Source: Oscillospiraceae bacterium (GTDB lineage Bacteria > Bacillota > Clostridia > Oscillospirales > Oscillospiraceae). From it: a stretch of DNA of 50,988 bases. Where the stretch lies: NCBI GenBank assembly GCA_902779945.1, contig CACZDN010000007.1, positions 1 through 50,988 of the forward strand. The letters run 5' to 3'. How positions within the stretch are numbered: position 1 is the stretch's first letter; every line of letters starts with the position of its first letter. Positions 1-50,988 of the stretch are shown here, piece by piece. The notes beneath the pieces are model-generated. The model worked only from the letters and a program-made list of their open reading frames with translations, made no database searches and was not told the DNA's origin. The position numbers were made by a program, and so were the translations under genes.

Positions 1-617
1 CTCGCCAGCACGCAGATCCACGGCTTTCTGCCGTGATGATCGGTGCTCACCTCTGAGAACCCGGCTTCTCGAAGGGCGTCTTCGAGCTCTTCCGCTGTGT
101 AGCACTTCATGCCGTCGATGATCTTCTCAAACTTCTTGCCCGCTGTGTCAAGACCGTCCGACTCGTTGCAGATCATAAACAGGCCGCCCGGCTTGAGGAC
201 GCGGGCTACCTGCGCAAAGCAGCGCTCCAGTCCCGGCCAGAAATAGACTGTTTCAAAGGCCGTGGCGAGATCGAAGCTCTCGTTCGGGAGTTTCAGATCG
301 GACACGTCTCCCTGCCGCACCGCGCAGCGTCCGGCGTCAATGCTCTTTTTGTTGTAAGCTGTCGCTTTTTCCACGGAGAGCGCGGAATAGTCTATCGCCG
401 TCACATGCGAATCAGGGTATTTCCGCAGCAGTTCTCCCGCGTTGCGCCCCGCGCCGCAGCCCAGGTCGACGATCCGCACCGGGCGGATTGTTGGCAGATG
501 GGTAAAACCCCAATCCGCGAGCTCACCGTGTCCGCTGTTCATGCCGCGCAGCATCAGTGCCCCCAGCACACCCTCAGGTTTTCTTGTCTGATTGAAAAAA
601 CGTTTCAGAAGTCCCAT
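1..617 (-). CDS. Class I SAM-dependent methyltransferase (3' end outside window)
   Basis: Last visible gene of the minus-strand operon that starts at 4548. The 205 visible residues show a Rossmann methyltransferase: motif I DLGCGAG at residues 51-57, the acidic SAM-ribose residue in AIDYS near residue 75, and a post-motif RVLKPGGLF. The reading frame is still open at base 1, so the C-terminus lies outside the window. ATG at 617 follows a GAGGAAA ribosome site and lies 10 bases after the previous gene's stop. The N-terminus (MNSGH, then DWGF) resembles a group of small clostridial methyltransferases of unknown substrate; this is recognition from memory, not a search. Sequence differs clearly from the other two methyltransferases of the operon, so it is not a tandem duplicate. 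Small molecule, lipid or protein substrates are all possible. Confidence 0.85.
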   Translation of the reverse strand, partial: MGLLKRFFNQTRKPEGVLGALMLRGMNSGHGELADWGFTHLPTIRPVRIVDLGCGAGRNAGELLRKYPDSHVTAIDYSALSVEKATAYNKKSIDAGRCAVRQGDVSDLKLPNESFDLATAFETVYFWPGLERCFAQVARVLKPGGLFMICNESDGLDTAGKKFEKIIDGMKCYTAEELEDALREAGFSEVSTDHHGRKPWICVLA

Positions 618-626
618 TCCGTTTCC

Positions 627-1307
627 TCACTTTCTGCACCGAAAGCAGCCGATGCCCTCGACGCTCGTCACGTTGACCTCACGATACATGGTTTTGAGCC
701 GATCGCGCAAGCTGCTTTCCGTCTCAAAAGGCGGGGTGAAAAAGCCCTTGGGAACATACAGATGCTCGATGAACCAGTCCGTCCGGGCGCAGCCACCCCG
801 GATATAGAAGCAGCCGCAGAACACGCCGTCAGGCTTGAGGACCCGGTAAGTCTCACGGTAAGCTGCCTCCTTATCCGGGAAAGCGTGAAAGCCGTTGAGT
901 GAGAGGACCGAGTCAAAGCTCTCGTCCGCAAAGGGCAGCGCGCCCACGTCTCCCTGTCGGAACATAATGTTCTGAATTCCCGCTGCCTCCGCGCGCTTCT
1001 GCGCTGCGGCCATCATATCCGCCGAATAGTCCAGACAGGTGATGTTCGCTTTGGGCAGTTCCCGGTAGACCGGCATGGTCAGCACACCCGTGCCCACCGG
1101 GACTTCCAGCAGCTTTCCGCTGAAATCCTCCGGCACGCCGGAGAGCGCCCGTTCAAGATAGCGCAGGTTCTTCTCTCCATCCATGTTCCATACCAGGCGG
1201 CAGATCGCCTTGCCGGGCAGGGTGGAATACGTCATCATCCCGTCATAGAAGCTCGCATGTCCGCCGGTGAGCCTGTAAGCACTCCTTATTTGGTCTTTCC
1301 TTGTCAT
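627..1307 (-). CDS. Class I SAM-dependent methyltransferase
   Basis: A 226-residue UbiE/Methyltransf_11-type enzyme. The SAM-binding motif I is LEVPVGTGV at residues 68-76, where the usual D/E-x-G-x-G reads EVPVGTG. The acidic residue after strand 2 is D93 (CLDYS), motif II lies around GDVGALPF, and motif III is RVLKPDG. A C-terminal half rich in Cys and aromatic residues follows (CGCFYIRGGC). ATG at 1307 has AAGGAG seven bases upstream; the gene starts only 4 bases beyond the stop of the upstream LCM-like gene, so translation is probably coupled. Substrate unknown. In context it is the second of three methyltransferases in an operon with two ATC-hydrolase-family proteins, which suggests a small-molecule pathway (inference). 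Confidence 0.87.
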   Translation of the reverse strand: MTRKDQIRSAYRLTGGHASFYDGMMTYSTLPGKAICRLVWNMDGEKNLRYLERALSGVPEDFSGKLLEVPVGTGVLTMPVYRELPKANITCLDYSADMMAAAQKRAEAAGIQNIMFRQGDVGALPFADESFDSVLSLNGFHAFPDKEAAYRETYRVLKPDGVFCGCFYIRGGCARTDWFIEHLYVPKGFFTPPFETESSLRDRLKTMYREVNVTSVEGIGCFRCRK

Positions 1308-1311
1308 ACGA

Positions 1312-2145
1312 TCACTCCTTGAAAACGATCTTCACGATCTTCATCTTCACCAGGCTGTCGCAGAAGCGGATCATCAGCTTGTGGAAGAGCCCCACATCCT
1401 TGTAAATATCCCGGTAGCCGCGCATATAGCTTTTTGCCGTGACGGATGCAAAACGATTGCTCCACCCAAACAGCTCTTTTTCATCCTCCAGTGAGAAAAA
1501 GGCGCTTACTTCGGTGATGCCCGCCTCCTTGAGCCAGGTTTTTCGCATCAGCTTTGCGCCGCGCTCATTGCAGGAATCAAAGGCCAGTACAGCGCCGGGA
1601 AAACGCTCCGCCATTGTGGAGAACAGCCGCTTGACATCCTCGATTTTGAAGTAATAGAACACGCCCGCGGCAAAGAACACGGCGCCCCGGGAGGTGTCGA
1701 TCGCGTCCATCCACCCATAGTCGTTGAGATCGCAGGCTATATTCTGTTCCCGTTCACCCGCGGGCAGCAGCTCATTCCGAACGGCGATCACATCCGGAAA
1801 ATCAAGGTTATATCCGCTGCAAAAGCCGTTGTCCACTTTGGAGAAGGTATCGTCCAGCCCGCAGCCCAGATTGACCACTGCGGCACATGGGTGCTGTTTC
1901 AGATAGCTTTCGACCTCGCATCGCAGATCATACTGGCGCTGCGCCACCTCCAGCGCGCCGAAAAGTCCCGCCGTGGACTCCATCTTCTTCCGTTTGTCGG
2001 CGAAATCGTAATCCAGCGAATCGCAGATCCGCCTGGCCTCCGGGTCGGAAAAGAGCTGCGGAAAGCGCTCGGAGCAGACCAGCCGTCCAAAGAGCGGAAT
2101 GACCAGCGTCTCCTGGATGCTGTTTTTCTCAATATGATATTTCAT
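1312..2145 (-). CDS. Leucine carboxyl methyltransferase-family (LCM/Tcmp-like) SAM methyltransferase
   Basis: A 277-residue protein with the hallmark of the LCM family: VVNLGCGLDDT at residues 90-100, an acidic residue in NLDFPDV, and a late FFAAGVFYYF segment. Known family members methylate carboxyl groups of proteins or small molecules; bacterial relatives often sit in biosynthetic clusters. ATG at 2145 is chosen because it overlaps the TGA of the HMA gene (ATGA), a usual sign of coupling; a TTG nine bases earlier is in frame but less likely. Acts in the cytoplasm. The substrate is unknown; it could be a product of the neighbouring ATC-hydrolase-family proteins (inference). Confidence 0.82.
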   Translation of the reverse strand: MKYHIEKNSIQETLVIPLFGRLVCSERFPQLFSDPEARRICDSLDYDFADKRKKMESTAGLFGALEVAQRQYDLRCEVESYLKQHPCAAVVNLGCGLDDTFSKVDNGFCSGYNLDFPDVIAVRNELLPAGEREQNIACDLNDYGWMDAIDTSRGAVFFAAGVFYYFKIEDVKRLFSTMAERFPGAVLAFDSCNERGAKLMRKTWLKEAGITEVSAFFSLEDEKELFGWSNRFASVTAKSYMRGYRDIYKDVGLFHKLMIRFCDSLVKMKIVKIVFKE

Positions 2146-2390
2146 CGAAACCAACCCATCTTCACATAAGGCTCTGAAACAACGGACGTACAGGTATACC
2201 CCGTCGCGTCGACAGCGTTCTTCAATAGCTTCTCGTCCACAGCTTCTTCCGAAAGAAAGCTTGCCTCGCCCTTTGTGTGAGAAGAAGAGACCTTCTTCGC
2301 GCCGGGCACGGCCTTGCGGATCACGTCATTGATATGCGCCTCGCACATGGAGCACATCATTCCCTCAATTTTCAACGTTGTTTTAATCAT
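2142..2390 (-). CDS. Small heavy-metal-associated (HMA) domain protein
   Basis: An 82-residue single-domain protein of the CopZ/HMA ferredoxin-like fold. The metal motif reads MMCSMCEAH, with Cys13 and Cys16 from the chosen start, followed by a helix (HINDVIRKAVPG) and a typical second half (DATGY). ATG at 2390 is preferred over the in-frame start 33 bases upstream because AGGAGC sits at the right distance before it. Family members carry Cu(I), Hg or Zn, or act as domains of metal ATPases. No metal ATPase or CopY-type regulator is in view, so a copper chaperone role is doubtful; delivery of a metal to, or sensing by, the operon's enzymes is an alternative (inference). The start overlaps the previous gene by 8 bases, and the stop overlaps the next gene. 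Confidence 0.88.
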   Translation of the reverse strand: MIKTTLKIEGMMCSMCEAHINDVIRKAVPGAKKVSSSHTKGEASFLSEEAVDEKLLKNAVDATGYTCTSVVSEPYVKMGWFR

Positions 2391-3027
2391 ATTCTCTGCT
2401 CCTTTTCTTATATCCGCAGTCACAGTAAGGGCCGCCGGAAGCCAGGGTGTATTGGCGCACGAAGATGTCAGCGCCGCCTGCCTCGCTCATTGTATAATCC
2501 AGCCGGCACATAGCCGGGATGAGCTCGCCCAGCCCCAGTTCACGCATCAGGGTGCAGATCCCGCACTTTGAAAAGCGCGCCTCATAACCGCTCCCGTCAG
2601 GATAGGGCAGGAATTCCATGTTCCAAGAATAGGGGTTGCGGTCTGCGGCACGGAAGGCGGCGGTCTCTTTCATGCCCTTGATATCCTCGGGGCTGAACTT
2701 TCTCTTCCCCGCCCGCCGGCAAAACCACTTCATGGGCTCCGTCATCATGGCAGCAGTATAAAACGCTGTCAGCTCGTCCACTCGCGGCCGCCTCGGCATG
2801 TTCAGCACGAAGGCCGCGAGCATGGCGCAGCTCACAATATTCATCCGAAAGCGGTCTCCCTTCTCAAAGTCCGGCAGTCCCCCGATCAGCTTTCGGTATT
2901 CCCGGCGCGCCGCCCTCGTGACCCGTGCCGCCGTTTTTCGGTCATAGCTCAGAACGTCCGTCAGTTTTCTCTGGAAGCTTCCGGCAAACAAAGCCCACAT
3001 GCCCGCGGGCATTCCGATGGTTCTCAT
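2383..3027 (-). CDS. L-2-amino-thiazoline-4-carboxylic acid hydrolase-family protein
   Basis: A 214-residue protein with the C-terminal pattern of the ATC hydrolase family: a Cys pair in KCGIC, then CRLDY, then a Gly-Gly followed by YCDCGY near the end. The founding enzyme in Pseudomonas opens the thiazoline ring of ATC on the way to L-cysteine; most family members in Clostridia have no known function. Cysteine-rich ends hint at metal or Fe-S binding (inference). ATG at 3027 has GGAGGG upstream. Second of two divergent family members in the operon, 49 bases after the first. The N-terminal half (1-60) is basic and helical and shows no recognised domain. Confidence 0.7.
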   Translation of the reverse strand: MRTIGMPAGMWALFAGSFQRKLTDVLSYDRKTAARVTRAARREYRKLIGGLPDFEKGDRFRMNIVSCAMLAAFVLNMPRRPRVDELTAFYTAAMMTEPMKWFCRRAGKRKFSPEDIKGMKETAAFRAADRNPYSWNMEFLPYPDGSGYEARFSKCGICTLMRELGLGELIPAMCRLDYTMSEAGGADIFVRQYTLASGGPYCDCGYKKRSREYD

Positions 3028-3076
3028 GTCTTTCCCTCCGCGCAGATTCCTGTGAAAGCACCGCTTCCATTGCCGA

Positions 3077-3685
3077 TCATAGCTTTTTCAGGAAGAAGTC
3101 ACAGCGCTCGGCTCCTTTACCGAGTGTTCCTGTCCGCTCGAACACCAGGCCCGGCAGATTGCCGTAGATTCTCTCGTCATTTTCGCAGAAGATTTTCGTA
3201 AGCTCCGGGCAGCCCAGCTCCGTAAAGGTGCGATAATACGGGCAAGACGTAACGTCCATTCGGTACTCGCCCTTTTTCTTCGGATAAAACACATTTTCAA
3301 AACCGTTGCCCGCGCCGAACAGCTTTCTTGTCATCGGGTCCCAGGCTTTCATGAACAGGCTTTGCATCCCGGGAACTTTCATCAGCTTCCGAAGCTTCCT
3401 TTCGATCCCCGCACAGGTTTTAATGGCTGCATCCTCGATGATCCGGTATGCCTTTTCCGGGCCGATAACTTCCTTTACAGTCAGATAGATTGCAGCCGAC
3501 GGAAGGATCCTGCTTTCCGTGTGGATATGTACGCCCCTGGGAAGGGTGTTGTAGCGGGCCAAATATCCGTCAAGCCTTGCCGTCGCCTCCCGCCACAGTC
3601 TGTCGCTTTGGGACTTCGGCAGGTCTTTATCCAGTTCAGCCTTGATATTGGCTTTCCTTTTCATGATCTTTTCTGCATTATTCAT
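3077..3685 (-). CDS. L-2-amino-thiazoline-4-carboxylic acid hydrolase-family protein
   Basis: A 202-residue protein of the same family as its downstream neighbour. The C-terminal half carries the family layout: DVTSCPYYRTFTELGC, then a CENDE segment in the place of the Cys-x-x-Asp motif, and a final ERCDFFLKK. The N-terminus is a highly charged helix. ATG at 3685 overlaps the TGA of the hydrolase gene (ATGA), with AAAGG 11 bases upstream. The two paralogues differ throughout, so they may form a heteromeric enzyme or act on different substrates (inference). The operon offers no cysteine-biosynthesis genes, so ATC itself may not be the substrate. Confidence 0.72.
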   Translation of the reverse strand: MNNAEKIMKRKANIKAELDKDLPKSQSDRLWREATARLDGYLARYNTLPRGVHIHTESRILPSAAIYLTVKEVIGPEKAYRIIEDAAIKTCAGIERKLRKLMKVPGMQSLFMKAWDPMTRKLFGAGNGFENVFYPKKKGEYRMDVTSCPYYRTFTELGCPELTKIFCENDERIYGNLPGLVFERTGTLGKGAERCDFFLKKL

Positions 3686-4548
3686 TGTGAGGCAACCTTT
3701 CTGAGCGGCGTCGTCCTTGCGCCTTTCTCCGTGTCATCATCCTCGATGTAGCTGTCGTATGGTGCGGAAGGATCTTTATATTTCTTCGTGAAAGGGCTGC
3801 AGATCTCGGTCCTGTGCCGGAAAGCAAAGTCCAGATCGTCTGTCCAGCCTGTGTGGCCGGTGATGATCCTGATGGGCTGTTTTCTCGCGCGCAGATTCGT
3901 TTCCAGCGCTTCCAGTGACCGTACTGCCAGATGATTATCCTCTGCCAGTGTGCTGATAAAGCTGTAGCCGCCGTCCGCGCCGAACCAGATCGTATCTCCG
4001 GTGAAAAGGTACTCGTCATCCACAAGATATACCATATGCCCCCAGGTATGCCCCGGCACCAGGATGCACTCTATTTTGATATCCCCCACCCGTACGATCT
4101 CGCCGTCCTTCAGCAGGATCTTCTGATTATCGGTTTTTACCATGGGCAATTTATAAGCGCCGTGGAAAACCTTTCTTCTGACCTCGCCGGTCAGATAGCG
4201 GTTCTCGATTTCCCCAATATAGACTGTGGCGTTTTGAAACAGCTGCTCGCTGTCTCGTTCGAGGGCTCCAACATGGTCTGTGTCCTGGTGGGTAATAAAG
4301 ATTTGCCGTATAGAGGCCGGGTCAATATCCAGCCAGCTCATTTTCTCCCTCAGCCGCACATAGTTATATCCGGCGTCGATCATGATCGTAGTCCCGTTTT
4401 TCGTGTAGAAAAAGATGTTTGCGACCCACTCCCGTACGCAGGCGACATGTTCGTCGATCCAGCCGGTGTTCAGCGGCTTAAAAATCGCCTTCCCGCGAAA
4501 CAGCAGGCTCATGCTCTTTTTCTGGTTTTCAGAATCTTTTCTCGCCAT
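3682..4548 (-). CDS. Metallo-beta-lactamase-fold hydrolase
   Basis: First gene of the seven-gene operon, 288 residues. The metal site reads HQDTDH at residues 87-92, where the second His of the classic HxHxDH is replaced by Asp; further ligands are H167 (GHTWGH), D185 (TGDT) and the late GHTG. This HxDxDH variant occurs in a branch of clostridial MBL proteins. The fold covers thioesterases, lactonases, phosphodiesterases and others, so the reaction cannot be named. ATG at 4548 follows AGGAGGG at 5-6 bases. Expression should come from the promoter at 4853-4880 with two palindromic operators; a MITE sits in the leader. The C-terminal 40 residues are charged and look disordered. Confidence 0.87.
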   Translation of the reverse strand: MARKDSENQKKSMSLLFRGKAIFKPLNTGWIDEHVACVREWVANIFFYTKNGTTIMIDAGYNYVRLREKMSWLDIDPASIRQIFITHQDTDHVGALERDSEQLFQNATVYIGEIENRYLTGEVRRKVFHGAYKLPMVKTDNQKILLKDGEIVRVGDIKIECILVPGHTWGHMVYLVDDEYLFTGDTIWFGADGGYSFISTLAEDNHLAVRSLEALETNLRARKQPIRIITGHTGWTDDLDFAFRHRTEICSPFTKKYKDPSAPYDSYIEDDDTEKGARTTPLRKVASQ

Positions 4549-4579: not shown

Positions 4580-4720
4580 GGCAACACCGCGCAATCCACC
4601 TGCGGCATCTCCTGGAAAATTTGCGCCCTGATTTCGAGCCTTTTTCTTGAGGTACACAAAGTACATCTGCGAAAAACTGCCTTTATCAGAACCCAAATTT
4701 TCTCAGGATCTGCTCTTGCC
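4580..4720. repeat. MITE-like palindromic repeat, copy 1 (reverse, one end lost)
   Basis: Begins GGCAACACCGCGCAATCC and runs through the family's central GTACACAAAGTAC hairpin to TCTCAGGATCTGCTCTTGCC. The outer 19 bases of the far inverted repeat are missing or diverged. It lies in the leader of the operon starting at 4548, between the palindrome at 4732 and the first ATG. Confidence 0.85.
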
Positions 4721-4731
4721 ATTCAATAATT

Positions 4732-4749
4732 GGTTAGCCGCATCTAACT
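4732..4749. promoter_or_regulatory. Palindromic operator, box A
   Basis: GGTTAG-CCGCAT-CTAACT, an 18-base imperfect palindrome matching boxes B, C and D in half-site and 6-base spacing. It lies in the leader of the MBL/ATC-hydrolase/methyltransferase operon, next to the MITE. Bound protein unknown; the GTTAG/CTAAC half-sites recall DtxR/IdeR-family sites, but the spacing is longer. Confidence 0.6.
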
Positions 4750-4827: not shown

Positions 4828-4845
4828 AGTTAGTTTGGTCTAACT
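4828..4845. promoter_or_regulatory. Palindromic operator, box B at the transcription start
   Basis: AGTTAG-TTTGGT-CTAACT, a perfect 6+6 palindrome placed 7 bases after the -10 hexamer of the minus-strand promoter, so it should cover the start site and repress when bound. Box D has the same geometry in the next operon. Confidence 0.7.
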
Positions 4846-5005: not shown

Positions 5006-5419
5006 TTACACCAGCGCAGCACCGAGAGCCTTGCAGGCATCTGCTCCCTCTCCCTCGGGCGCGTTGTTTACAAGCACGCTCTCCGCAGCGAGCTTGATGC
5101 CGCAGGCCCTGCAGTCGTCCTCCCTGTTGCGCATCCACTCGCCGTCACCCCAGCCGTAGGAACCGAAGAGAGCAACCCTTTTTCCGGCAAGCGTTTTCTT
5201 TACGCTGTCGAACATCGGCTCAAACTCGGAGTCCTCCAGCTGCTCAGAGCCCATCGCGGGGCAGCCGAAAGCGATGGCGTCATAAGCAGAAAGATCTGTG
5301 ACGGAATTGCACTCGATGAGATCGGCGTCCGCGCCGGCGCTCTTCATGCCCTCCAGGACGAGATCTGCCATGGCTGCAGTATTGCCCGTGCCGCTCCAGT
5401 AAACAACTGCTGCTTTCAT
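5006..5419 (-). CDS. Flavodoxin
   Basis: A 137-residue short-chain flavodoxin that carries electrons via FMN. The phosphate-binding loop SGTGNTA is at residues 9-15, and the isoalloxazine loops are GCPAMGSEQLED near 54-65 and GSYGWGDGEW near 87-96. ATG at 5419 is chosen over one six bases upstream because AAGGAG lies seven bases before it. Last gene of the DUF2325-DUF3793-flavodoxin operon; 91 bases separate it from DUF3793, including a small hairpin. Flavodoxins often replace ferredoxin when iron is short, which fits the presumed metal-responsive operators upstream of the operon (inference). Confidence 0.92.
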   Translation of the reverse strand: MKAAVVYWSGTGNTAAMADLVLEGMKSAGADADLIECNSVTDLSAYDAIAFGCPAMGSEQLEDSEFEPMFDSVKKTLAGKRVALFGSYGWGDGEWMRNREDDCRACGIKLAAESVLVNNAPEGEGADACKALGAALV

Positions 5420-5454
5420 ATACATTCTCCTTCTTGTTCATTCAGAGTTTATTT

Positions 5455-5510: not shown

Positions 5511-6059
5511 TCAAACCGCGACCGCGAGCTTTTCAAGACTTACGCCGCTTTCCCAAAGGCGGCAATAGCACGCGGAGCACTTTTGAAAGCGTTCACAGAG
5601 CTTTCTGGATTTCTGCTCGTCCCCGTAGATTTTCCACATGCAGCTGGCTTTACAGTTGTCCCGGTCGTCTATAAAGCCTCTCACGTCCTCCGGTGGGTAG
5701 CTCAGGAACAGTCCCACCTCATGTGGAAAGTCTTCTCCGCTGCGAAAACGCTCCACCAGATGGCGCACACAGGCGGCGCAGCTTGAACAGGCATAGCCTG
5801 ATTCCTGCAAAAGCTCCTGTGAGATATGGTCTTTCAAATCCTTCTCCAGACTCTGCGGACGATAGAGATATAAAAGCGCGGACTTCTCCATCACACGCAG
5901 CAAAAGCAGGCACATGCCGCGCGGCACAAGCACGCGGTTGAAGGCGCGGATATCGCGGAGCAGCTCTTCCCTGCTCTCGCAGCGATACGGGAACATGCTG
6001 CCCGTCTTGATTCCGGCCAGGGTGGGCGCGGCCTGGCGTACAATCGTTTCCTCCGACAT
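5511..6059 (-). CDS. DUF3793 family protein
   Basis: A 182-residue cytoplasmic protein of the DUF3793 family, known from Clostridia where it is often next to feoAB, DUF2325 and flavodoxin genes. It is Cys-rich: CSSCAAC near the middle, then NCKASC and a closing KCSACYC. The Cys pattern suggests metal or Fe-S binding (inference). The central YPPEDV/GFID segment is typical of the family. ATG at 6059 shares its A with the TGA of DUF2325 (one-base overlap), so the two are coupled. No function is established. Confidence 0.82.
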   Translation of the reverse strand: MSEETIVRQAAPTLAGIKTGSMFPYRCESREELLRDIRAFNRVLVPRGMCLLLLRVMEKSALLYLYRPQSLEKDLKDHISQELLQESGYACSSCAACVRHLVERFRSGEDFPHEVGLFLSYPPEDVRGFIDDRDNCKASCMWKIYGDEQKSRKLCERFQKCSACYCRLWESGVSLEKLAVAV

Positions 6060-6337
6060 CAGGCGTACTTCTCCAATACTTTTTTCAGCGCAGAGACCGA
6101 ACTTGTGGGACAGTATTCTACGATCACGTTCTGTCCCTTGATCTCCCCCAGCGCGCCCTGCAGCATCTTGTGGGACATGGCTCCGGTAAAGAAAATAACA
6201 AGGTCGGGATTGCCCATCTTCCGCTTCACGCCGCCGACCGGTTTGACCATGACCTTGGCCTCATGGCGGTAATCCCGGCACAGGCTCTTGTATTTCTGTT
6301 CCATACATTCATTTCCGCCGAGAATCACAACGCTCAT
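6059..6337 (-). CDS. DUF2325 family protein
   Basis: A 92-residue protein starting MSVVILGGNECM, the standard DUF2325 opening, with an internal FFTGAMSHKML segment and a Rossmann-like beta-alpha pattern. ATG at 6337 is preferred to one six bases upstream because AGAAGGGG then sits at normal spacing and the family start is matched. First gene of its operon, driven by the consensus promoter at 6471-6499 and bracketed by operators C and D. Family function is unknown; it is a common partner of ferrous-iron transport genes in Firmicutes. Confidence 0.85.
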   Translation of the reverse strand: MSVVILGGNECMEQKYKSLCRDYRHEAKVMVKPVGGVKRKMGNPDLVIFFTGAMSHKMLQGALGEIKGQNVIVEYCPTSSVSALKKVLEKYA

Positions 6338-6372
6338 GTCCATCCCCTTCTCCGTTTTGATTTTCTCATTTT

Positions 6373-6390
6373 AGTTAGCTTTTGCTAACT
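6373..6390. promoter_or_regulatory. Palindromic operator, box C in the leader
   Basis: AGTTAGC-TTTT-GCTAACT, a perfect 18-base palindrome 35 bases upstream of the DUF2325 ATG. Same half-sites as boxes A, B and D. Confidence 0.7.
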
Positions 6391-6446: not shown

Positions 6447-6464
6447 CGTTAGCGTTTGCTAACT
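6447..6464. promoter_or_regulatory. Palindromic operator, box D at the transcription start
   Basis: CGTTAGC-GTTT-GCTAACT, six bases after the -10 of the minus-strand promoter, so it overlaps the start site as box B does. Confidence 0.72.
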
Positions 6465-6921: not shown

Positions 6922-7722
6922 TCATGATTCTCCGTGATGACGTCGGCAGCCGTCGTCCCCTTCCTGATGACCGCAGTCAAGGCCTTTTCCGTGGTGATGA
7001 CCGCATTCGTGCCCCTCCCCGTGGTGGTGGCCGCATTCATGACCTTCCCCGTGGTGATGACCGTGGTGCTCACATTGAGCATTGGGATCATACCGGAGCG
7101 TGCCCTCCGTAAGTGCTTTGGCTGCTGCGTCCGCCGAGCCGGATACTCCGCCGTAGAGCTTGATGCCCGCCTCGGCCAGCGCATTCTGAGCGCCCATGCC
7201 GATGCCGCCGCAGATCAGGGCATCCACCTGCGCGGCTTTCAGGAAGCCTGCAAGCGCGCCATGCCCGCTGCCGTTGGTGGGCACGATCTGTTCCTCGACG
7301 ATTTTACCGTCCTCCACATCATAGAACTTGAACTGCTCGGTGTGACCGAAGTGCTGGAAAATCTCTCCGTTTTCGTAAGTTACCGCAATTCTCATGGTTT
7401 TTGATCCTTTCTGCATGATATTTTTCGTTCCCTGATCGTTGAGCTGATAGTTCCCGCCCCGGATCAGGAGGCGCCTCCCATCCACCAGCGCGTCGGCCAC
7501 TTTACGCCGCGCGCTCTCGTAGATGGCCGTCACCGTTGTGCGGGCAATGCCCATCCGCTCGGCGCATTGCTCCTGTGTCAGTCCCACGCGGTCAAGAAGA
7601 CGGATCGTTTCAAACTCGTCCAGACTCAGCACGACAGGCTCTTTGTCCGAAGCTTCCTCCGGCGAGAACTCCCAATGATCCGGGTAGCCGTCGATCCAAC
7701 GACAGCGCTGCTTTCTGGGCAT
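6922..7722 (-). CDS. DUF134 HTH protein fused to NifX/NifB-type cofactor-binding domain, His/Cys-rich tail
   Basis: A 266-residue two-domain protein. Residues 1-93 match DUF134 (MPRKQRCRWIDGYP; helix-turn-helix around LTQEQCAERMGIARTT). Residues 109-215 are a NifX/NafY-like Fe-Mo cofactor-binding fold (MRIAVTYENGEIFQHFGH, ICGGIGMGAQNAL). The tail from 222 has repeated GHECGHHHGE units, a plausible metal buffer. DUF134 plus NifX in one chain is known in Clostridia and methanogens, without a defined role; no nif genes are visible, so nitrogen fixation is not implied. ATG at 7722 follows AAAGGAG. The promoter at 7757-7785 carries two palindromes that the HTH may bind itself (inference). The repeats in the tail are coding, not CRISPR. 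Confidence 0.88.
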   Translation of the reverse strand: MPRKQRCRWIDGYPDHWEFSPEEASDKEPVVLSLDEFETIRLLDRVGLTQEQCAERMGIARTTVTAIYESARRKVADALVDGRRLLIRGGNYQLNDQGTKNIMQKGSKTMRIAVTYENGEIFQHFGHTEQFKFYDVEDGKIVEEQIVPTNGSGHGALAGFLKAAQVDALICGGIGMGAQNALAEAGIKLYGGVSGSADAAAKALTEGTLRYDPNAQCEHHGHHHGEGHECGHHHGEGHECGHHHGKGLDCGHQEGDDGCRRHHGES

Positions 7723-7804: not shown

Positions 7805-7927
7805 ATGAAGAGCTTTCTGCTGTTTTCACAGCAAAAAAACGCGAGACTGCACAAATATCGCTTGAATACCTCGAGGCAACACAGCATAATTCGGCGAGAG
7901 CGAATTCTGCGAAAATCTGTGTTCTGA
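7805..7927 (+). pseudogene. Short ORF whose 3' part is supplied by a MITE
   Basis: ATG at 7805 has a good AAAGGAG seven bases upstream. The first 23 codons (MKSFLLFSQQKNARLHKYRL...) are native; from 7875 the frame runs into MITE copy 3 and stops at 7927. The strong ribosome site suggests a real gene, divergent from DUF134-NifX, was interrupted by the insertion. Only the start is left; I cannot identify the family. Confidence 0.45.
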
Positions 7928-8032
7928 TGAAGGAATAATTTGCAGAAACACTTTGTGTATTGCAAGAAGGAGGCTCAAAATCAGGGCACAATTTATCCGG
8001 GAGGCGCCGATGGCGGATTGTGCGCTGTTGCC
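7875..8032. repeat. MITE-like repeat, copy 3 (forward, near full length)
   Basis: About 158 bases from GGCAACACAGCATAATTCGG to GCGGATTGTGCGCTGTTGCC, with the central TACTTTGTGTA hairpin. Both terminal inverted repeats are present with single changes. Confidence 0.88.
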
Positions 8033-8680: not shown

Positions 8681-8841
8681 GGGCAACACCGCATAATTCG
8701 GCGAGAGCGAATCCTGAGAAAATTTGGGGTTCTGATGAAGGCAGTTTTTTGCAGGAATACTTTGTGTATTTCAAGAAAAAGTGACAAAATCAGAGCGCGA
8801 ATTTTCCAGGAGGCGCCGAAGGCGGATTGTGCGGTGTTGCC
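8681..8841. repeat. MITE-like repeat, copy 4 (forward, full length reference)
   Basis: 161 bases, GGGCAACACCGCATAATTCG to GCGGATTGTGCGGTGTTGCC, flanked on both sides by TTA (8678-8680 and 8842-8844), a possible 2-3 base target duplication. The two halves pair imperfectly over the full length, with GAATAC-TTTGT-GTATTTC at the tip. No ORF for a transposase. Confidence 0.9.
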
Positions 8842-14003: not shown

Positions 14004-17000
14004 TCACTCGGATTTCTCCGCCTCATAGATCAGCTCGCCCAGGATGCGGACCAGATGGGCAGACTCCACGGGCTTGCTGAGGTGGGCGCTCATGCCAGCC
14101 TGCATGGAGCGCTGCACGTCCTCGTCGAAGGCGTTGGCGGTGAGGGCGATGATGGGGATGGTCTTCGCGTCACGGCGTTTCATGGCGCGGATGGCCGCGG
14201 TGGCCTCCAGGCCGTCCATCACCGGCATACGCACGTCCATGAGGATTGCCGAATATGTCCCGACAGCGCTCCTGCGGAACATTTCGACGGCGGCGCTGCC
14301 GTTTTCGGCGTGGTCGACCATGACATTTTCAAGCTCCAGGGTGTCGATCATGATCTCGGCGTTGATCTCCATATCCTCAGCCAGGAGAATATGGCGTCCC
14401 GCGAGGCTGGCGCGCTTCTTTTCCTTGAAGAGGGCCATGTTGGTCTTGCGGGCGATACGCTCAAACTGTTCGATAACATTGGACGCGAAGAGGGGCTTGG
14501 AGAGGAAGTTGTCCACACCGACGCGGTGCGCCTCCGCCTGTATATCATCCCAGTTATAAGCCGTCAGGACGACGACGGTGGACTCGGTATCGTACTGTTT
14601 GAGGATTTCGGCAGATGCCTCCAGGCCGTTCATGCCGGGCATGTTCCAGTCCATGAGGACGAGGTTGTAGGGCTTGTGCTTGAGGTGCTGGACCTCCATC
14701 ATGCGCAGGGCCTCCTCGCCGCTGGAGCAGGTGTCGGCCCGGACGCCGACCTCCTCCAGGACCGTCCTGGCGTGCTCCGCCTCGACCGGATCGTCGTCCA
14801 CCACGAGCACACGCAGGGCATGGGGGTCGATGGAGCTTTCCAGCTCCGCGTCGCTGCGGTCGCAGGTCCTGAGCGTGACGGTGACGGCAAATTCCGTTCC
14901 GACGCCCTTTTCGGATTCGACGCTGATAGAGCCGTTCATCATGTCCACGATGCGCTTGGTGATGGCCATGCCGAGACCGGTGCTGCCGAATTTGCTCTTG
15001 TGGCTGTTGTCCTCCTGGGTGAAGGCGTCAAAGATTTTGGGGATGAACTCCGGTTCCATGCCGACGCCGGTATCCCGGACGCGGAAGCAGAGCGTGGACT
15101 GATCCTCAAACACCGCCGTCCGCTCCACCGTCAGTGTAACGCTGCCGGGCGCCTCGGTAAACTTGATGGCGTTTGAAAGGATGTTGATGAGGATCTCCTT
15201 CAGCTTCATTTCGTCGCCGATATAGGAGTCGTCCATCTGATTCAGGATGTGTTGCTCGTAGCTGAGGCCCTTGTCGACGCACTGGGACGCGACCATGGTG
15301 CTGATCTGCTCCAGCATGGCGCTGAGGGAGAAGCCCGCCTTGTGCAGGACCATGCTGCCGGATTCGATGCGGCTCATATCCAGGATGTCGTTGATGAGGG
15401 TGAGAAGGTGTTTGGCGCTGTTGCCGATCTTCTCGAGATATTCGCGCGTGTCGGAGGCGAGCTCCTTGTTTTTCAGGGCGAGGGTATCAAGCCCGATGAT
15501 CGCGTTCATGGGAGTGCGTATCTCATGACTCATGCGGGAGAGGAAGGAGGTCTTGGCCTTGTTTGCCTCCTCCGCGGAGCTCAGCGCCTCCGCCAGGGCC
15601 TCGCTCTTCGCCATGGCGTCGCGCATTTCGGCGTCGACATCCGTAATGCCGACGATGATGAACTGCCTGTCATCCTCCATGCGGGAGATCTTCATGCTGA
15701 CGTAGGTCTGACCGGCGGGGCCAGTCTGGCGGTAGGTCATCATATAGGTGTCCTTCCGGTTCAGCGCCTTCATGAGGGTGCGGCGGTCCATGGCTTTGAG
15801 GAAGGCGTCGCGGTCCTCGGGATAGACGCTTTCCGCCATCTCCGCCTTGCAGTCGCTGAAGAAGTGCCAGCCTCGCCGCATCTCGGAGAGGGCGCTGCTC
15901 TCGTTCCCGCGGCGATACTCGATAAACTCCTCCGTGTCCAGATTGACATAGAACATGTCCATATAATCGCGGGCAAGGGTCTGGGCAATGTGGGTATACA
16001 TGATCGCGGCGGTGCGGGATCTCTCGTATTCCTCCTTGGACATGGCGCTGTCGTACTGGATGCGCACCATGTCGGTCACGTCCCGGCAGATGCCGAGAAG
16101 GCAGAGCCTTCCGTCCGCGTCGGTGTATTTGAGCTTGGTGGTCTGGAAGCGGCGGGGATTACCCGCGGCGTCCGGCACGTCCTCGAAGAAGATGAAGGGT
16201 CTCTCCATCGAGAGAGCCATCCGGTCGTCCCGCACAAAATGCTCTGCAGTCTCCGCATCGAAGATCTGCGCATCGGTGAGACCGACCACACCGTCCGGCG
16301 TCTCCTTGTGGGCGTAGTCCGCAAAGCCCTGGTTGCAGGCGAGATAGACGCCGGTAGCCGCGTCCTTGGTGAAGGTCATGCCTGGCATGTTGTCCAGAAG
16401 CGACGTGATCGTCTGCTTCATGTCCGCGATCTTTTTGGCCGCGATCGCCTCATTCTCCGCCACGGTCAACTGTTTGCCGAGCTTCTGCGTCTCCCGGTAA
16501 TTATTCGTCAGAAGTGTGAAGAACAGAAGGAACAGCCCCAGGGATACGGCGGTGTACAGTACGTTGGTGCTGCTGATCGCCCTGGCCTGCTCATGGAGAT
16601 AGGAGGCCCGATCCACAACACTTGCACTGTCCGAATCGAGATCCGGGTGGCTCTGGTGATAGGCGAAGATACGGTCCACCGCATCGTTCGCGGCGGACTC
16701 CGTCGCGCGGGACACCCACATCATCGAGGCGAACAGCACCAGCACCAGCAGGAAGATCCACACGATCATGCGCTGGCCGTACTTCCGGTTGTGACCGTTG
16801 TGCATCAAAAGCTGATAATAGCTCAGCCCCAGCACGGACCAGAAGATGAACAGGGCGTAAGACTCCGTCGCCATTGCCTGAAAGGGCAGCAGGCCCGGAA
16901 TCAGAAGCAGGAAGATGAAGCACGTCATCAGCACTATACCGACAACGCCGGTTATCTTCTCGACACGGTGGCCTTCCTTCCGGGCGTAGCAGTAGACTGC

Positions 17001-18224
17001 GTGGGAAATCAGGCCGTAGATGATCGTCGCCCCAAGGGTCGTGACGTCCACGATCCAGCCGATGGCCGTCCTGCCGAGGAAGGGTACAAAAATGGACACG
17101 GCGACGATGGCGACGATCGCCGTGGACGGCACGCCGCGGCGGTTCAGCTCCGCGAGCGCCGGGGGAGCCTCCCCCTCCCTGCCCGCCGCGTACAGCAGGC
17201 GGCTCAGAGCCAGCATGTTGCCGATAAGGCTGGTCAGGATCACGCCGAAGAGGGCGACCATCAGCAGCGTGACGCCCGCCTGGCCGAGATAGTGCCGGGC
17301 CGCGTAGAACGCCGGGACCGCCTTGATCCCCTCCAGATTGCCCATGTCCCGGATGTAGGCAAGCCAGCTGTCATACTCCGGCGGATAGGCTGAGACGGAG
17401 AGCAGGGACACGAAGATGTACAGCAGCGTGGTGAGGATCACGGACCAGATCAGCACGCCGCGCACCTTTTTGACCGGGAAGCTGTACTCCTCCGCGAAAT
17501 GTGAGATATTCTCGAAGCCGATAAAGGCCCAGGGTGATATGGCCGCGATGCGAACAATCTGCGCGAAAGCGCTCGACCCCTCGGTATAGAGGGGGGCGTA
17601 GGAAAAGGCCCTGTCGTGACCCGCGATCGCGATGACGGCGCAGACCGTGAAGCCGACCGAGAACAGCAGGGCCGCAACGATCATGACGCGGTTCGGCAGG
17701 CGCGGGCTGTTGGCGCAGAGGACCCCGATGAGGATCACGGCGCAGATGGAGAGCATGGCCTCCCCCAGCCAGACCTCATAGCCGAAGACGCGGTAGCGGA
17801 AGCCGACCTGGAACAGCTCGCCCAAGAAGAAGCGGGCGAACAGGGGCAGAGAGGTCATGTTGGCCCACAGCACGGCAAGATAGGTCAGCAGCACGAACCA
17901 GAGGGCGAGAAAGCCCATGTCGTTCCCGCCGACCTTCTTCTGGAAGGTGTAGACGCCGCCCGCGTCGGGTGAGACGCGGATCATGTACTGCAAATTCCAG
18001 GTGATGAAAAAGATGACCGCCATGCCGAGCAGCATCCCGATGACCGTACCGAGCACGCCGGATTTTTGCAGATAGGTGTTGCAGGTGACAATAAAGGAGC
18101 CCCAGCCGATGCTTGTCCCGATGGAGAAGGCCCACATGCCCAGAGGCGTAAAGCCGGAGCGCAGTCCGCCCGCATGACTGTCAGGATGCGTCCCCGTGGG
18201 GGCGCCGGTTTTGCTGTGTCCCAT
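14004..18224 (-). CDS. APC-family amino-acid permease fused to PAS hybrid histidine kinase with two receivers
   Basis: 1406 residues. 1-475: APC permease core with many membrane helices (FSIGTSIGWGSF near 33-44, GFENISHFAEE near 236-246). 486-505 and 553-573: two more helices around a short outside loop. 580-605: linker coil. 605-720: PAS (LLDNMPGMTFTKD). 735-865: second PAS-like unit (FYVNLDTEEFIEY). 880-950: HisKA with H900 (SHEIRTP). 1000-1117: HATPase (N1018, DTGVGM at 1051). 1137-1255: receiver 1 with D1192. 1277-1398: receiver 2 with D1330 and K1384. A membrane sensor that may read amino-acid binding or flux and start a phosphorelay; CbrA (SLC5 transporter-kinase) is a known parallel design. 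No Hpt domain or DNA-binding partner is nearby. ATG 18224 follows GGAAAG. Confidence 0.93.
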   Translation of the reverse strand: MGHSKTGAPTGTHPDSHAGGLRSGFTPLGMWAFSIGTSIGWGSFIVTCNTYLQKSGVLGTVIGMLLGMAVIFFITWNLQYMIRVSPDAGGVYTFQKKVGGNDMGFLALWFVLLTYLAVLWANMTSLPLFARFFLGELFQVGFRYRVFGYEVWLGEAMLSICAVILIGVLCANSPRLPNRVMIVAALLFSVGFTVCAVIAIAGHDRAFSYAPLYTEGSSAFAQIVRIAAISPWAFIGFENISHFAEEYSFPVKKVRGVLIWSVILTTLLYIFVSLLSVSAYPPEYDSWLAYIRDMGNLEGIKAVPAFYAARHYLGQAGVTLLMVALFGVILTSLIGNMLALSRLLYAAGREGEAPPALAELNRRGVPSTAIVAIVAVSIFVPFLGRTAIGWIVDVTTLGATIIYGLISHAVYCYARKEGHRVEKITGVVGIVLMTCFIFLLLIPGLLPFQAMATESYALFIFWSVLGLSYYQLLMHNGHNRKYGQRMIVWIFLLVLVLFASMMWVSRATESAANDAVDRIFAYHQSHPDLDSDSASVVDRASYLHEQARAISSTNVLYTAVSLGLFLLFFTLLTNNYRETQKLGKQLTVAENEAIAAKKIADMKQTITSLLDNMPGMTFTKDAATGVYLACNQGFADYAHKETPDGVVGLTDAQIFDAETAEHFVRDDRMALSMERPFIFFEDVPDAAGNPRRFQTTKLKYTDADGRLCLLGICRDVTDMVRIQYDSAMSKEEYERSRTAAIMYTHIAQTLARDYMDMFYVNLDTEEFIEYRRGNESSALSEMRRGWHFFSDCKAEMAESVYPEDRDAFLKAMDRRTLMKALNRKDTYMMTYRQTGPAGQTYVSMKISRMEDDRQFIIVGITDVDAEMRDAMAKSEALAEALSSAEEANKAKTSFLSRMSHEIRTPMNAIIGLDTLALKNKELASDTREYLEKIGNSAKHLLTLINDILDMSRIESGSMVLHKAGFSLSAMLEQISTMVASQCVDKGLSYEQHILNQMDDSYIGDEMKLKEILINILSNAIKFTEAPGSVTLTVERTAVFEDQSTLCFRVRDTGVGMEPEFIPKIFDAFTQEDNSHKSKFGSTGLGMAITKRIVDMMNGSISVESEKGVGTEFAVTVTLRTCDRSDAELESSIDPHALRVLVVDDDPVEAEHARTVLEEVGVRADTCSSGEEALRMMEVQHLKHKPYNLVLMDWNMPGMNGLEASAEILKQYDTESTVVVLTAYNWDDIQAEAHRVGVDNFLSKPLFASNVIEQFERIARKTNMALFKEKKRASLAGRHILLAEDMEINAEIMIDTLELENVMVDHAENGSAAVEMFRRSAVGTYSAILMDVRMPVMDGLEATAAIRAMKRRDAKTIPIIALTANAFDEDVQRSMQAGMSAHLSKPVESAHLVRILGELIYEAEKSE

Positions 18225-18368: not shown

Positions 18369-21300
18369 TCAGGGATTTGCTTTCAGCTCGCTCTTGTTTT
18401 CGTACATGTTCTGGTCCGCGCGCTCGAAGACCGGGGCTACGCTGAGCTCTTGCTCATGCCTCGCCATGCCGCAGGCGATGATGATCCCGCCGCTGCGCAC
18501 GGCCTCGTCGTTGTGCGAACGAATGCTGCCGACCAGCGTGTCGATGGACTGGTAGTCGCTCCCCTGTGCGATGACGGCAAACTCGTCCCCGCCGACGCGA
18601 AAGACCGGGCTGTGCTTGAAGGTATTGCAGACGATCCTGCAGGCGTCGCGGAGATACCGGTCTCCCGCCTTGTGCCCCTCGGTGTCGTTGATCTTCTTGA
18701 GATCGTTCACGTCGAGGATGACGACGGCAAACTCGATGCCGGGATTCTTCTCGATCTGCTCGTTCAGGCGCTCCTCGGCCACGAGGTAGGCGTGGCGGTT
18801 CTTCACACCGGTGAGCGCGTCGACGGTGGCTTCGATGCGCGCCTTCGCGAGGTGCTTGACATACTCCTCCTCCTGGCGGACCTGGTTGTCGATGTCGTTG
18901 ACGCCGAAGATGAGCCGGGGCCCCTCCTTCTCCTCCACCATGGCGGCCTTGAGCTGCACATAGCGGGGCTTGCCGTCGATCAGGAGGCGGTAGCTCACGG
19001 TAAAGATGCCGCGGCGCTCGACCTCGTCAAGCACGTTTTCCCGGGTCATGACCGAGAGGAAGAGGTTCAGGTCCTCGGGATAGACGGCGGTGCGGGCCCT
19101 GTCCCGCAAGTCGGCAAAGAAATCGAAGCCCTCGCCGGGCCGGTCGTTATTCTCAGTGCCGGCAGTTGCGCTGAATTCACGGTAACGGCCGGTCTCGGGC
19201 ACGACGATGAAGATGCTGAGGAATTCGCCGGCGAGCGCCGTGATGCGGGCGTAGGCGACCTGCTCCTCCTGCATGCGTGCGGCAAACTGGCGCTGCTTCA
19301 TCTGATCGTCGATATCGGTGATGCCGATGATGATGTAGCGCTCGTCGTCCTTCATGCGGGAGATCTTGATGTTGACATAGACGGGCTGGCTCTCCGTGAG
19401 GAAGCGGCAGGTCATGACGCAGGTCCCGTCCCGGTCCAGCGCCTTCACGAGATTTCTGCGGTCCATGGTCCTGAGGAACGCCTCTCTGTCTTCGGGATGG
19501 ACTGACTGCTCCGCCGTCGTCTCACACTCCTCGAAGAAGTGCCAGCCGCGCTTCGCCTCGATGAGAGTGCCGCCGTTCTCGTCCGTGTGGTATTCGATGA
19601 ATTCTTCAGAATCGAGATTGACATAGTACAGGCGCGTGTAGCCGCGGGCCAGCGCCTGGGCGATGTGGGTGTAGATGATGCCGGTGCTGCGCGCCTTCGC
19701 GTAGGCCTCCTTCGTGGTGGCGTTCTCGCGCTGGATGCGCACCATGTCCGTCATATCCTGATAGATGCCGAGGATGCAGAGCCTGCCCGCGGCGTCCGTG
19801 TACTTGAGCTTGGTGATCTGGAACTCGCGCTGGTCGCCGCCGGCGTCCCGCACGTCCTCATAGAAGATGTAGGGCTGATCCATGGAGACGGCGATCCTGT
19901 CGTCCTCCATGAAGCGGGCCGCTGTCCTGGAGTCGAAGATCTCCGCGTCCGTGAGGCCCAGCACCTCCTCCGGCGAGGACTTGTGCGCGTACTCCGCGAA
20001 GGGCTGGTTGCAGGCGAGGTAGGTCCCGGTTTTTGCGTCCTTGGTGAAGGTCATGCCGGGCATATTGTCCAGCAGCGACGCGATGGTCTGCTCCAGCTCC
20101 GTGGTTTCGGCCGCCTCCTCCAGAAGACGCTGCTGCTCGTTTGCCCGGCGCTCGACCTTCAGCTTTTCAAGCAGGAGGGCAATGATGATAGCGAACACCG
20201 TGGAGATCACCGCGAGGACGGCTATCCAGTTGTCTCTGAGAAACTGCGTCAGAGATGCCTTCTGGTTTGAATGCATGTAGGAGGCGAGGGCGGAATCCAT
20301 ATCCTCGCTCTTCGTCATGAGCACCGTTTTGTTCAGGAGGAAGTAGAGATCGCGCTCCGCCCTTCTCACCGCGAAGGAAAGGGGCATGGACTCACCCGTC
20401 GGGACGGAGAAGAGCTTGTATTTCTGAACGGTATCCTCGGCCGTGGGGAGCCTGTAGCTGCTGACGAGGATGCAGTCCGTGTCCCCGGCGGCGACCGCCG
20501 CAAAGCAGGCGTCGCCGGAGGAGAAGGTCTTCCGCACGGACGAGGGATACTTCTCCATGATGAAGGTCTCGGTATTCAGATCCCCGGCGGCGACCGCGAA
20601 GGTGATCGTGCTGTCACGCGAGAGGTCCTGATTTTTCGATGCGCGCATGACGGCGTGCATCTCCGTCGTCATGGCGGGATTGGTCAGGCGCACGTCCATC
20701 TGTTCCGCGTCGTAGGAGCTCAGATTGACCGGGAAAACGCAGTCGATCTTCCCCGCCTTCATCGCCGCCAGCGCCGACTCGGTCGAGCTGTAGGGGATCG
20801 CCTCAAAATGAATATCCGCGCTGCGCAGATTGTTCTCCGCGTGGGCAAGATAGTCCTTCAGCGCGCCGGTCAGCTCCCCTGTCTCCTTGTCGTACTGGCA
20901 GAAGGGCAGCGAATTGTCCCGGTAGCCGATACGGATCGCGCCGTGCTCTCTGATCCAGCTCTCCTGGGTCTGCGTCAAATACACGTTTGTCCTCGTGTCG
21001 TACACGCGCTCCTCGTTCAGCCTCTGGATGAAAAGCGGGTCCTCGTCCTGGATGGCGGCCAGGGCCATGTTCAGCTCGGCCAGCAGATCCGGGCGGTTTA
21101 TATTGACAGCGCAGAAGAAGTCCGACGCGCCGATCCTGCAGAGGGGGAGAATCTTATGTTCGGAGCTGAAGGTGTAGATGGAAGCAAAGCCGTCCAGCTC
21201 ACCGCGGGTGACCATTTTGAGCGACTCGTCCTCGTCGCAGGTCAGGGCGACGATTTCAAGTTTGATGCCGTTTTTTGCGGCCCAGTCCTTCAAAAAGCCC

Positions 21301-21767: not shown

Positions 21768-21924
21768 CTCTGTCATCCTCCGATCAGTCCGGTCCCTTCC
21801 CGAAAACCTGCCGCGCGCCGCCCCCGGCAGCCGGCGGAACTCCCCGGTCTGCGGGTGGCTGTCATATTTTATTTATCATATCATATGCAGCTTGAAATTT
21901 CCATCCCCAAACAGCAAAAAACAA

Positions 21925-31394: not shown

Positions 31395-31512
31395 CTTGTT
31401 CACGGCCTTTCTGTCTCAACTGTTCAAATATCAACGCCATGTCGGTGAAAAGTGCGCCGACCGGATAATTTACCATATATTGTATAACGCCCGTGCATTT
31501 TGTTGTTTATTT

Positions 31513-36361: not shown

Positions 36362-36522
36362 GGGCGGCACCGCCCAATCCACCATCGGTGTCTCCCGGAA
36401 AAATAGTGTCCTGAATATGTCACTTCTTCTTGCAATACGCAAAGTATTCCTGCGAAAAATTGTCTTCATCAGAACCCAATTTTTACTCAGGATTCATTCT
36501 CGCCGAATTATGCGGTGTTACC
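36362..36522. repeat. MITE-like repeat, copy 6 (reverse, full length, diverged)
   Basis: GGGCGGCACCGCCCAATCC at the left and CGAATTATGCGGTGTTACCC at the right, about 160 bases, with the GCAAAGTATTCC centre. It sits 60 bases upstream of the cNMP pair and may carry or disturb their promoter. Confidence 0.85.
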
Positions 36523-50846: not shown

Positions 50847-50988
50847 GGGCAATACCGCATAATTCGGCAAGAGCAGATCCTGAGAAAAGTTGGGTTCTGA
50901 TAAAGGCACTTTTTCGCAGATGTACTTTGTGTACCTCAAGGAAAAGGCTCGAAATCAGAGCGCAAATTTTCCAGGAGATGCCGAAGGC
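50847..50988. repeat. MITE-like repeat, copy 7 (forward, cut by window end)
   Basis: GGGCAATACCGCATAATTCGG through the GTACTTTGTGTACC centre to GAGATGCCGAAGGC at the last base. Starts 2 bases after the preceding repeat. Confidence 0.88.

Follow-up and report, generated by a model that had tools for sequence, protein, structure and literature searches.

The question raised by contig CACZDN010000007.1 (C7) of a rumen-type gut Oscillospiraceae bacterium (assembly GCA_902779945.1) is which pathway is served by seven packed genes at its very start. The window analysed is the whole stretch of 50,988 nucleotides, from the first base of this contig. The genes occupy the minus strand from 4548 to 3 and encode, in order, a metallo-beta-lactamase (MBL)-fold hydrolase, two proteins of the ATC_hydrolase family PF14196 (ATC1 and ATC2), a small HMA metal-binding protein, an LCM-type S-adenosylmethionine (SAM) methyltransferase and two class I SAM methyltransferases (MT2 and MT3). 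An initial annotation, made from the letters alone, had described them as one operon that matched no recognised pathway. All seven frames are open and placed as claimed, the Pfam families agree, with every score above its curated cut-off, and the searches made returned no known pathway. The set is very probably an iron-starvation operon, which is the simplest reading because its operators are common with FTR1, FeoAB and flavodoxin. That this iron-repressed operon makes or modifies a metallophore-like molecule, or processes an imported iron ligand, is given a probability of roughly 45%.

The single operon is borne out by overlaps or gaps of no more than 49 bases throughout. The MBL and ATC1 genes share an ATGA overlap, a gap of 49 bases separates ATC1 from ATC2, ATC2 overlaps HMA by 8 bases and HMA overlaps LCM by 4, and gaps of 4 and 9 bases separate LCM from MT2 and MT2 from MT3. 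A codon-bias gene caller also called all seven genes, with the MT2 start trimmed; four of the seven contributed to its training, so the support is not independent. The 3′ end of MT3 is cut by the contig end, and probably only a few codons are missing since its relatives measure 205–208 aa. As the window opens at the first base of C7, the far end of the operon is missing from the assembly, which comprises 39 contigs and 2,870,900 bases and is 86% complete.

The strict palindrome GTTAG-N6-CTAAC was found at nine sites in this genome, and its reversed control at none. Four palindromes in the window carry or match the core of the consensus RGTTAG-N6-CTAACY, two upstream of the MBL gene and two upstream of the DUF2325 gene that heads a neighbouring operon. 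The remaining five are on contig C27, at 61 and 82 bases upstream of FTR1, 152 bases upstream of FeoA-FeoB, 106 bases upstream of a DUF6796 gene and 21 bases upstream of a TetR-ABC-ABC set, in which ABC denotes ATP-binding cassette subunits. All nine sites lie 21–281 bases upstream of gene starts, and FTR1 is followed by an Fe2+-transport protein (Iron_transport) and an FtrD-like protein. The upstream operators presumed in the initial annotation are real repeated palindromes, now tied to iron-uptake genes. That the operon and the iron-uptake genes have these operators in common is well supported by the sequence comparison, and such shared palindromes upstream of iron-uptake genes are the pattern that a DtxR-type iron regulon is predicted to display. 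The C27 locus, a second iron locus of the same genome, spans G000:C27:74001-90477 (L157) and G000:C27:58001-74000 (L166). It contains FTR1, the Fe2+-transport and FtrD-like proteins, FeoAB, two TetR genes, DUF6796, a small membrane protein of the cluster's mem8 family and the ABC pair, with a DtxR-ATPase-DUF6110 group about 10 kb away.

The association holds beyond the source genome. Across 118 loci, 161 of 165 TTAG-N6-CTAA sites are intergenic, though only 14% of the sequence is; eleven permuted palindromes gave 0–28 intergenic sites, and duplicated stretches among the 118 loci affect these controls too. Pattern scanning of named genome contigs yielded 485 stretches and 405 confirmed ATC2 relatives, and the best-scoring 80 are the named loci to which the following counts refer. 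A site lies within 450 bases of 39 of 62 testable starts of ATC2 gene runs, versus 14 of 219 control starts (Fisher p 4e-20), leaving out 14 loci cut by contig ends and four without a called ATC2. FeoB is present in 13 of the 80 loci (1.2 Mb in total) against about 1.3 expected (Poisson 1.5e-9), an expectation estimated from 0–4, mostly 1–3, matches per genome of about 2 Mb. Among 60 relatives, at least one strict site occurs in 51, which means that the operator is not confined to the cluster; the 174 sites in total compare with 37 for the reversed control, which, at zero in the source genome, reaches up to four per genome in these relatives.

A candidate repressor is present. The source genome has one detected protein, of 126 aa, with a DtxR metal-binding domain, adjoining a P-type ATPase and DUF6110, and 98% identical to the copy in the locus of the nearest relative (L068). 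In the L068 copy a Met and a Cys align with the EMYL and ACRxEH motifs of DtxR/IdeR. The Met and Cys of these motifs are metal ligands. Solved DtxR chains score above MntR for this protein, which would bind the palindromes with iron as the metal sensed; manganese may be the metal instead. The ABC pair behind the C27 operator weakly suggests a siderophore-type importer. For the copy of one subunit in a close relative (L072), the best half-size solved chain is 6p6i_A at 306 bits, followed by IrtA (283) and TM_0288 (248); 6p6i_A is YbtP, also seen as the partner of YbtQ in 8vsi.

Conserved residues were read from alignments of several operon proteins. Metal ligands of the metallo-beta-lactamase fold are usually HxHxDH-H-D-H. 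The MBL protein departs from the HxHxDH motif, Asp replacing the second His (H87-x-D89-x-D91-H92), with the other ligands H167, D185 and H232 retained; each is conserved in at least 47 of the 48 rows. The HMA protein has C13 and C16 in 38/38 rows, and MT2 has C91 and C166 in 48/48, with C224 in 98% of the 48. PADLOC anti-phage profiles gave no whole-protein match among the operon proteins, only partial ones: LmuA at 22.9 bits for the MBL protein, and mad2 (62.9 and 61.2 bits) and MTase_II (17.3 bits) for MT2/MT3.

ATC1 and ATC2 are, as first described, divergent members of one family, both above the PF14196 cut-off of 28.1 bits, with ATC1 only 16–21% identical to nine ATC2-type alignment rows. 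Three Cys and one Arg are invariant across 162 PF14196 proteins of six subfamilies (duplicates included), a set of cysteines that fits Fe-S or Zn binding; TolI, a protein of the same annotation from the tolyporphin cluster, is not in this alignment. A structure model of ATC1 (pLDDT 95.6) has Foldseek neighbours that are mostly H-NOX (haem-binding), V4R sensor and TRAPP domains, all of weak likeness, and the same groups lead a second fold-comparison listing. Since TolI, the one protein so annotated for which a published chemistry was found, acts on tetrapyrroles, the name ‘ATC hydrolase’ may be misleading for ATC1 and ATC2.

Among gut bacteria the cluster is widespread and much rearranged. LCM exceeds 180 bits in 13 of the 60 relatives (own genome included), all of the same genus, with two more weak matches. 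ATC2 exceeds 200 bits in eight, and all eight have LCM. In the five genomes with LCM only, two (G005 and G026) have it at a contig start and one (G011) has a stop-containing ATC2 fragment. Class-wide, ATC2 matches occur in 11 of 291 genomes, two besides the source exceeding 350 bits, and PF14196 is found in 29 of 150 genomes of the family. By record title, with titles of metagenome-assembled genomes taken as given, the 80 loci include Faecalibacterium (L099, L100, L103, L106, L118, L125 and L140), Gemmiger formicilis ATCC 27749, Lachnospiraceae bacterium GAM79, Erysipelotrichaceae and Coriobacteriaceae. ATC2 identity stays at 66–99% across these best-scoring 80, which suggests horizontal spread. 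In the window itself, the GC content of the operon (1-4548) is 0.553 versus 0.606 in 7001-50988, and its genes have codon-bias scores below most of the window despite a model partly trained on them; both are compatible with recent acquisition.

The nearest relative, RUG13650 (L068, on a contig shared with L023), has the order MBL-ATC1-ATC2-HMA-(ZIP)-LCM-MT2-MT3 at 91–99% identity. The ZIP gene is absent from the window copy, in which HMA and LCM overlap directly. Beyond MT3 come, in L068, genes for an alpha/beta hydrolase and another methyltransferase, then DUF6110, a P-type ATPase, DtxR, DUF2325, DUF3793 and flavodoxin; the first two would be expected next past base 1 of the window. The expectation that the seven genes would be found together elsewhere stood in part: the families recur jointly in other genomes, and the exact set was found, by eye, only in the very close relatives L068, L070 and L072 (MT3 of L070 being two overlapping matches). 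A diverged second cluster in one genome (L036, G002:C240) has LCM and MBL proteins 40% and 42% identical, together with a PF14196 protein, a hydrolase-like protein and small membrane proteins.

The seven genes are no fixed unit; they represent one selection out of about 27 interchangeable families whose order is shuffled. Scored by tblastn at 100 bits (60 for HMA), LCM is present in 45 of the 80 loci, MBL in 37, MT2 in 36, HMA in 32, MT3 in 30 and ATC1 in 20, so that the HMA and LCM partners proposed for a neighbourhood check do recur. Metal-related partners are ZIP (22), a P-type ATPase usually adjoining DUF6110 (12) and Feo/DtxR (20), and regulators are TetR and AraC (6 each). Further recurrent families include alpha/beta-hydrolase-like proteins (Abhydrolase_3, BAAT_C and Abhydrolase_6 above cut-off for three groups, others below cut-off or by eye), extra methyltransferases, an ApbA-like KPR protein, DUF6796, small membrane proteins without a Pfam match and extra PF14196 groups, several paralogues often sharing a cluster. 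With a core set of 27 families, at least three partner genes occur in 61 loci, one in 10 and none in four, short contigs included. The partner genes lie on the strand of ATC2 in 471 of 481 cases, and 359 of 431 adjacent same-strand core pairs overlap or are at most 50 bases apart. There are 172 different ordered neighbour pairs, 30 of them in both orders. For 24 of the 28 family pairs the loci sufficed for a comparison of distances, and all 24 correlate (r 0.21–0.98); in 21 of them no more than 1 of 200 permutations reached the observed value; host ancestry was left in and alone could add to these correlations. The weakest are those of LCM with MT2, HMA and ZIP (7, 14 and 26 of 200 permutations). 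From these correlations, weaker for the LCM pairs, the parts of the cluster appear to travel together, with some exchanged independently.

The proposed mechanism begins with scarcity of iron, upon which the DtxR-type repressor would leave the GTTAG-N6-CTAAC operators. Derepression would co-activate the FTR1 system, FeoAB, the ABC half-transporter pair, flavodoxin and the seven-gene operon. The two three-cysteine PF14196 proteins, three SAM methyltransferases and the MBL hydrolase would form a tailoring set acting in one pathway, and the HMA protein would serve as a small metal carrier. The cell would gain iron because the enzymes build or modify a metal-binding small molecule, or else work on an iron ligand taken up from outside. 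Like TolI, the PF14196 proteins could be Fe-S enzymes (or Zn enzymes) whose substrate is aromatic or tetrapyrrole-like. The cluster probably yields or alters a small molecule for obtaining metal. A metallophore-like product or iron ligand is the leading guess because tailoring enzymes without a known scaffold enzyme occur with a metal carrier and a YbtP-like ABC pair.

Several observations count against a metallophore under iron control. Among the window genes and Pfam-typed neighbour families, a range that leaves out many single-locus genes and the remainder of the genome, none was found to encode a scaffold enzyme of the known metallophore classes (non-ribosomal peptide synthetase, NRPS; NRPS-independent siderophore synthetase, NIS; nicotianamine/opine). 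The operator is absent from 23 of the 62 ATC2 runs, and four of the eight relatives with strong ATC2 (G006, G013, G015 and G031) have 0–1 strict site genome-wide. Full-size eukaryotic exporters head the lists of both ABC subunits; the second subunit is near-tied between the YbtP chain (273), MsbA (257) and IrtA (254), NCBIfam puts exporters first, all below cut-off, and just 2 of the 60 genomes, counting the source, hold a close subunit copy (E 1e-180). For the DtxR protein, NCBIfam MntR models score 82 and 57 bits versus 46 for DtxR, all below cut-off, and at the Met position, judged by eye, 19 of the 29 DtxR proteins from these loci carry Asp. The ZIP, P-type ATPase and HMA partners would also suit zinc or manganese handling.

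The main rival is a tetrapyrrole route, in which the operon would attach and remove side chains or methyl esters of imported haem, porphyrin or corrinoid, freeing iron or recycling the ring without oxygen, with the PF14196 proteins as TolI-like Fe-S hydrolases. It is unlikely as a full account; the invariant cysteines, the H-NOX-type fold neighbours, the shared operators and the removal of vinyl groups from porphyrinogen without O2 by TolI, an Fe-S protein of the same family name, all speak for it, and the absence of hem genes among the families typed sets it apart from the TolI setting. Metal detoxification or metal-thiol stress (metal-thiol detoxification being the third option of the initial annotation), or zinc/manganese homeostasis, is improbable: HMA, ZIP and the P-type ATPase with the PacL-related DUF6110 would suit it, as would the MntR-leaning family scores, but operators common to FTR1, FeoAB and flavodoxin predict induction by scarcity, not excess. 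Detoxification is argued against by the operators common to FTR1 and FeoAB, which favour acquisition or sparing. As judged from sequence, either of the other two options of the initial annotation, a small metallophore or a cofactor modification, may be right.

The marked shuffling of gene order, the abundance of paralogues among the hydrolase-like, methyltransferase and small membrane proteins and the TetR and AraC partners would also suit an iron-starvation natural product other than a metallophore (an antibacterial, a signal or a membrane lipid), with genes borrowed into the iron regulon and diversified by reshuffling. This is quite unlikely, as the ZIP, P-type ATPase, HMA and Feo/DtxR partners indicate metal handling. 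An iron-responsive locus that merely gathers independently acquired metal and stress genes would explain why the presence of each family varies and why some loci have one partner or none. It is very improbable, since LCM accompanies strong ATC2 in eight of eight genomes versus 13 of 60 overall (p 5e-7, genomes treated as independent), core neighbours are tightly packed, and distances correlate, host ancestry possibly adding to the last. Within the metallophore-like reading, a bolder version remains doubtful: anaerobic gut bacteria would acquire iron by a categorically new kind of chemistry, in which a metal-binding small molecule is formed with no NRPS, NIS or nicotianamine-type synthase by a combinatorial set of about 27 exchangeable single-gene modules (multiple H-NOX/V4R-like three-cysteine hydrolases, methyltransferases, alpha/beta hydrolases and small membrane proteins), with a strain-varying product and possibly a tetrapyrrole scaffold.

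The features of the window are listed below.

Coordinates of the operon genes, operators and neighbouring operon (scores are Pfam unless stated)
Feature	Position	Strand	Details
MBL-fold metallo-hydrolase, first gene of operon	3682..4548	-	Lactamase_B 58.6 bits, ODP 29.9 bits
ATC1, PF14196	3077..3685	-	ATC_hydrolase 99.3 bits; C148, C167, C195
ATC2, PF14196	2383..3027	-	ATC_hydrolase 84.6 bits; C155, C174, C202 and extra Cys
HMA metal-binding protein, CxxC	2142..2390	-	HMA 30.7 bits
LCM-type SAM methyltransferase	1312..2145	-	LCM 37.4 bits
MT2, class I SAM methyltransferase	627..1307	-	Methyltransf_25 82.8 bits
MT3, class I SAM methyltransferase	1..617 (codons to base 3, no stop)	-	Methyltransf_25 78.1 bits
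Operator GTTAG-N6-CTAAC	4733..4748	.	185 b upstream of MBL start
Operator AGTTAG-N6-CTAACT	4829..4844	.	281 b upstream of MBL start
Operator	6374..6389	.	31 b upstream of DUF2325 gene
Operator	6448..6463	.	105 b upstream of DUF2325 gene
DUF2325 protein, first gene of neighbouring operon with same operators	6059..6343	-	86.6 bits
DUF3793 protein	5511..6059	-	173.1 bits
Short-chain flavodoxin	5006..5425	-	49.8 bits; TIGR01753 139.9 bits (cut-off 123)

At least one of DUF2325, DUF3793 and flavodoxin is present in 14 of the 80 loci; a literature search on DUF3793 found nothing relevant. Adjoining these iron-type operons, at 6922-7722, is a protein with a histidine-rich HHGEGHECGH repeat tail. Interspersed repeats of 100–140 nt that start with ggcaac or ggcaat lie at 4580-4701 (between the operators and the MBL start), 7875-8014, 8682-8823, 36363-36484 and 50848-50988 (the far end of the contig). 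They form at least two related groups, grouped by eye, with copies 67–82% like their reference. Three very large proteins are encoded at 14004-18224, 18369-21776 and 27930-31403 by genes that have repeated segments in common.

The component families are known; their combination, shuffling and operators common with iron uptake are undescribed in the literature searched. Among strict anaerobes, Faecalibacterium and the rumen Oscillospiraceae included, iron acquisition seems little studied, and a literature search on Faecalibacterium metallophores and biosynthetic gene clusters returned nothing related. If an iron-starvation biosynthetic system is indeed present, common gut commensals would own a distinct chemistry, the role of proteins named ‘ATC hydrolase’ would become easier to explain, and the questions raised could be tested in cultured strains.

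Four known systems offer comparison. Three reports (PMC8401325, PMC10548856, PMC10459692) describe TolI, an annotated ATC hydrolase of the tolyporphin cluster, as an Fe-S protein that cleaves porphyrinogen side chains independently of oxygen. Its likeness to ATC1 and ATC2 is one of annotation and family name, not of sequence comparison, and it sits with hem and P450 genes in cyanobacteria, whereas no hem gene is among the families typed here. YbtPQ and IrtAB resemble the regulon of the operon in that an ABC_membrane-ABC_tran pair lies behind an iron-type operator, YbtP leading the half-size solved chains for either subunit. They differ in that the margin over exporters is small for one subunit, full-size exporters score higher, and the families typed include no enzyme for making a siderophore of the Ybt or mycobactin type. 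The feoAABC operon of Faecalibacterium, a gut Oscillospiraceae FeoB system, is reported to be induced without and repressed with ferrous sulfate (PMC10781979); neither methyltransferases nor hydrolases are mentioned in the main text of that report. DUF6110 is related, in another report, to PacL proteins and P1B6 ATPases (PMC9374683), and the P-type ATPase partner, usually adjoining DUF6110, is alike to the PacL/CtpC platforms. Those platforms serve zinc resistance in mycobacteria, whereas here the module accompanies an enzyme cluster behind iron-type operators.

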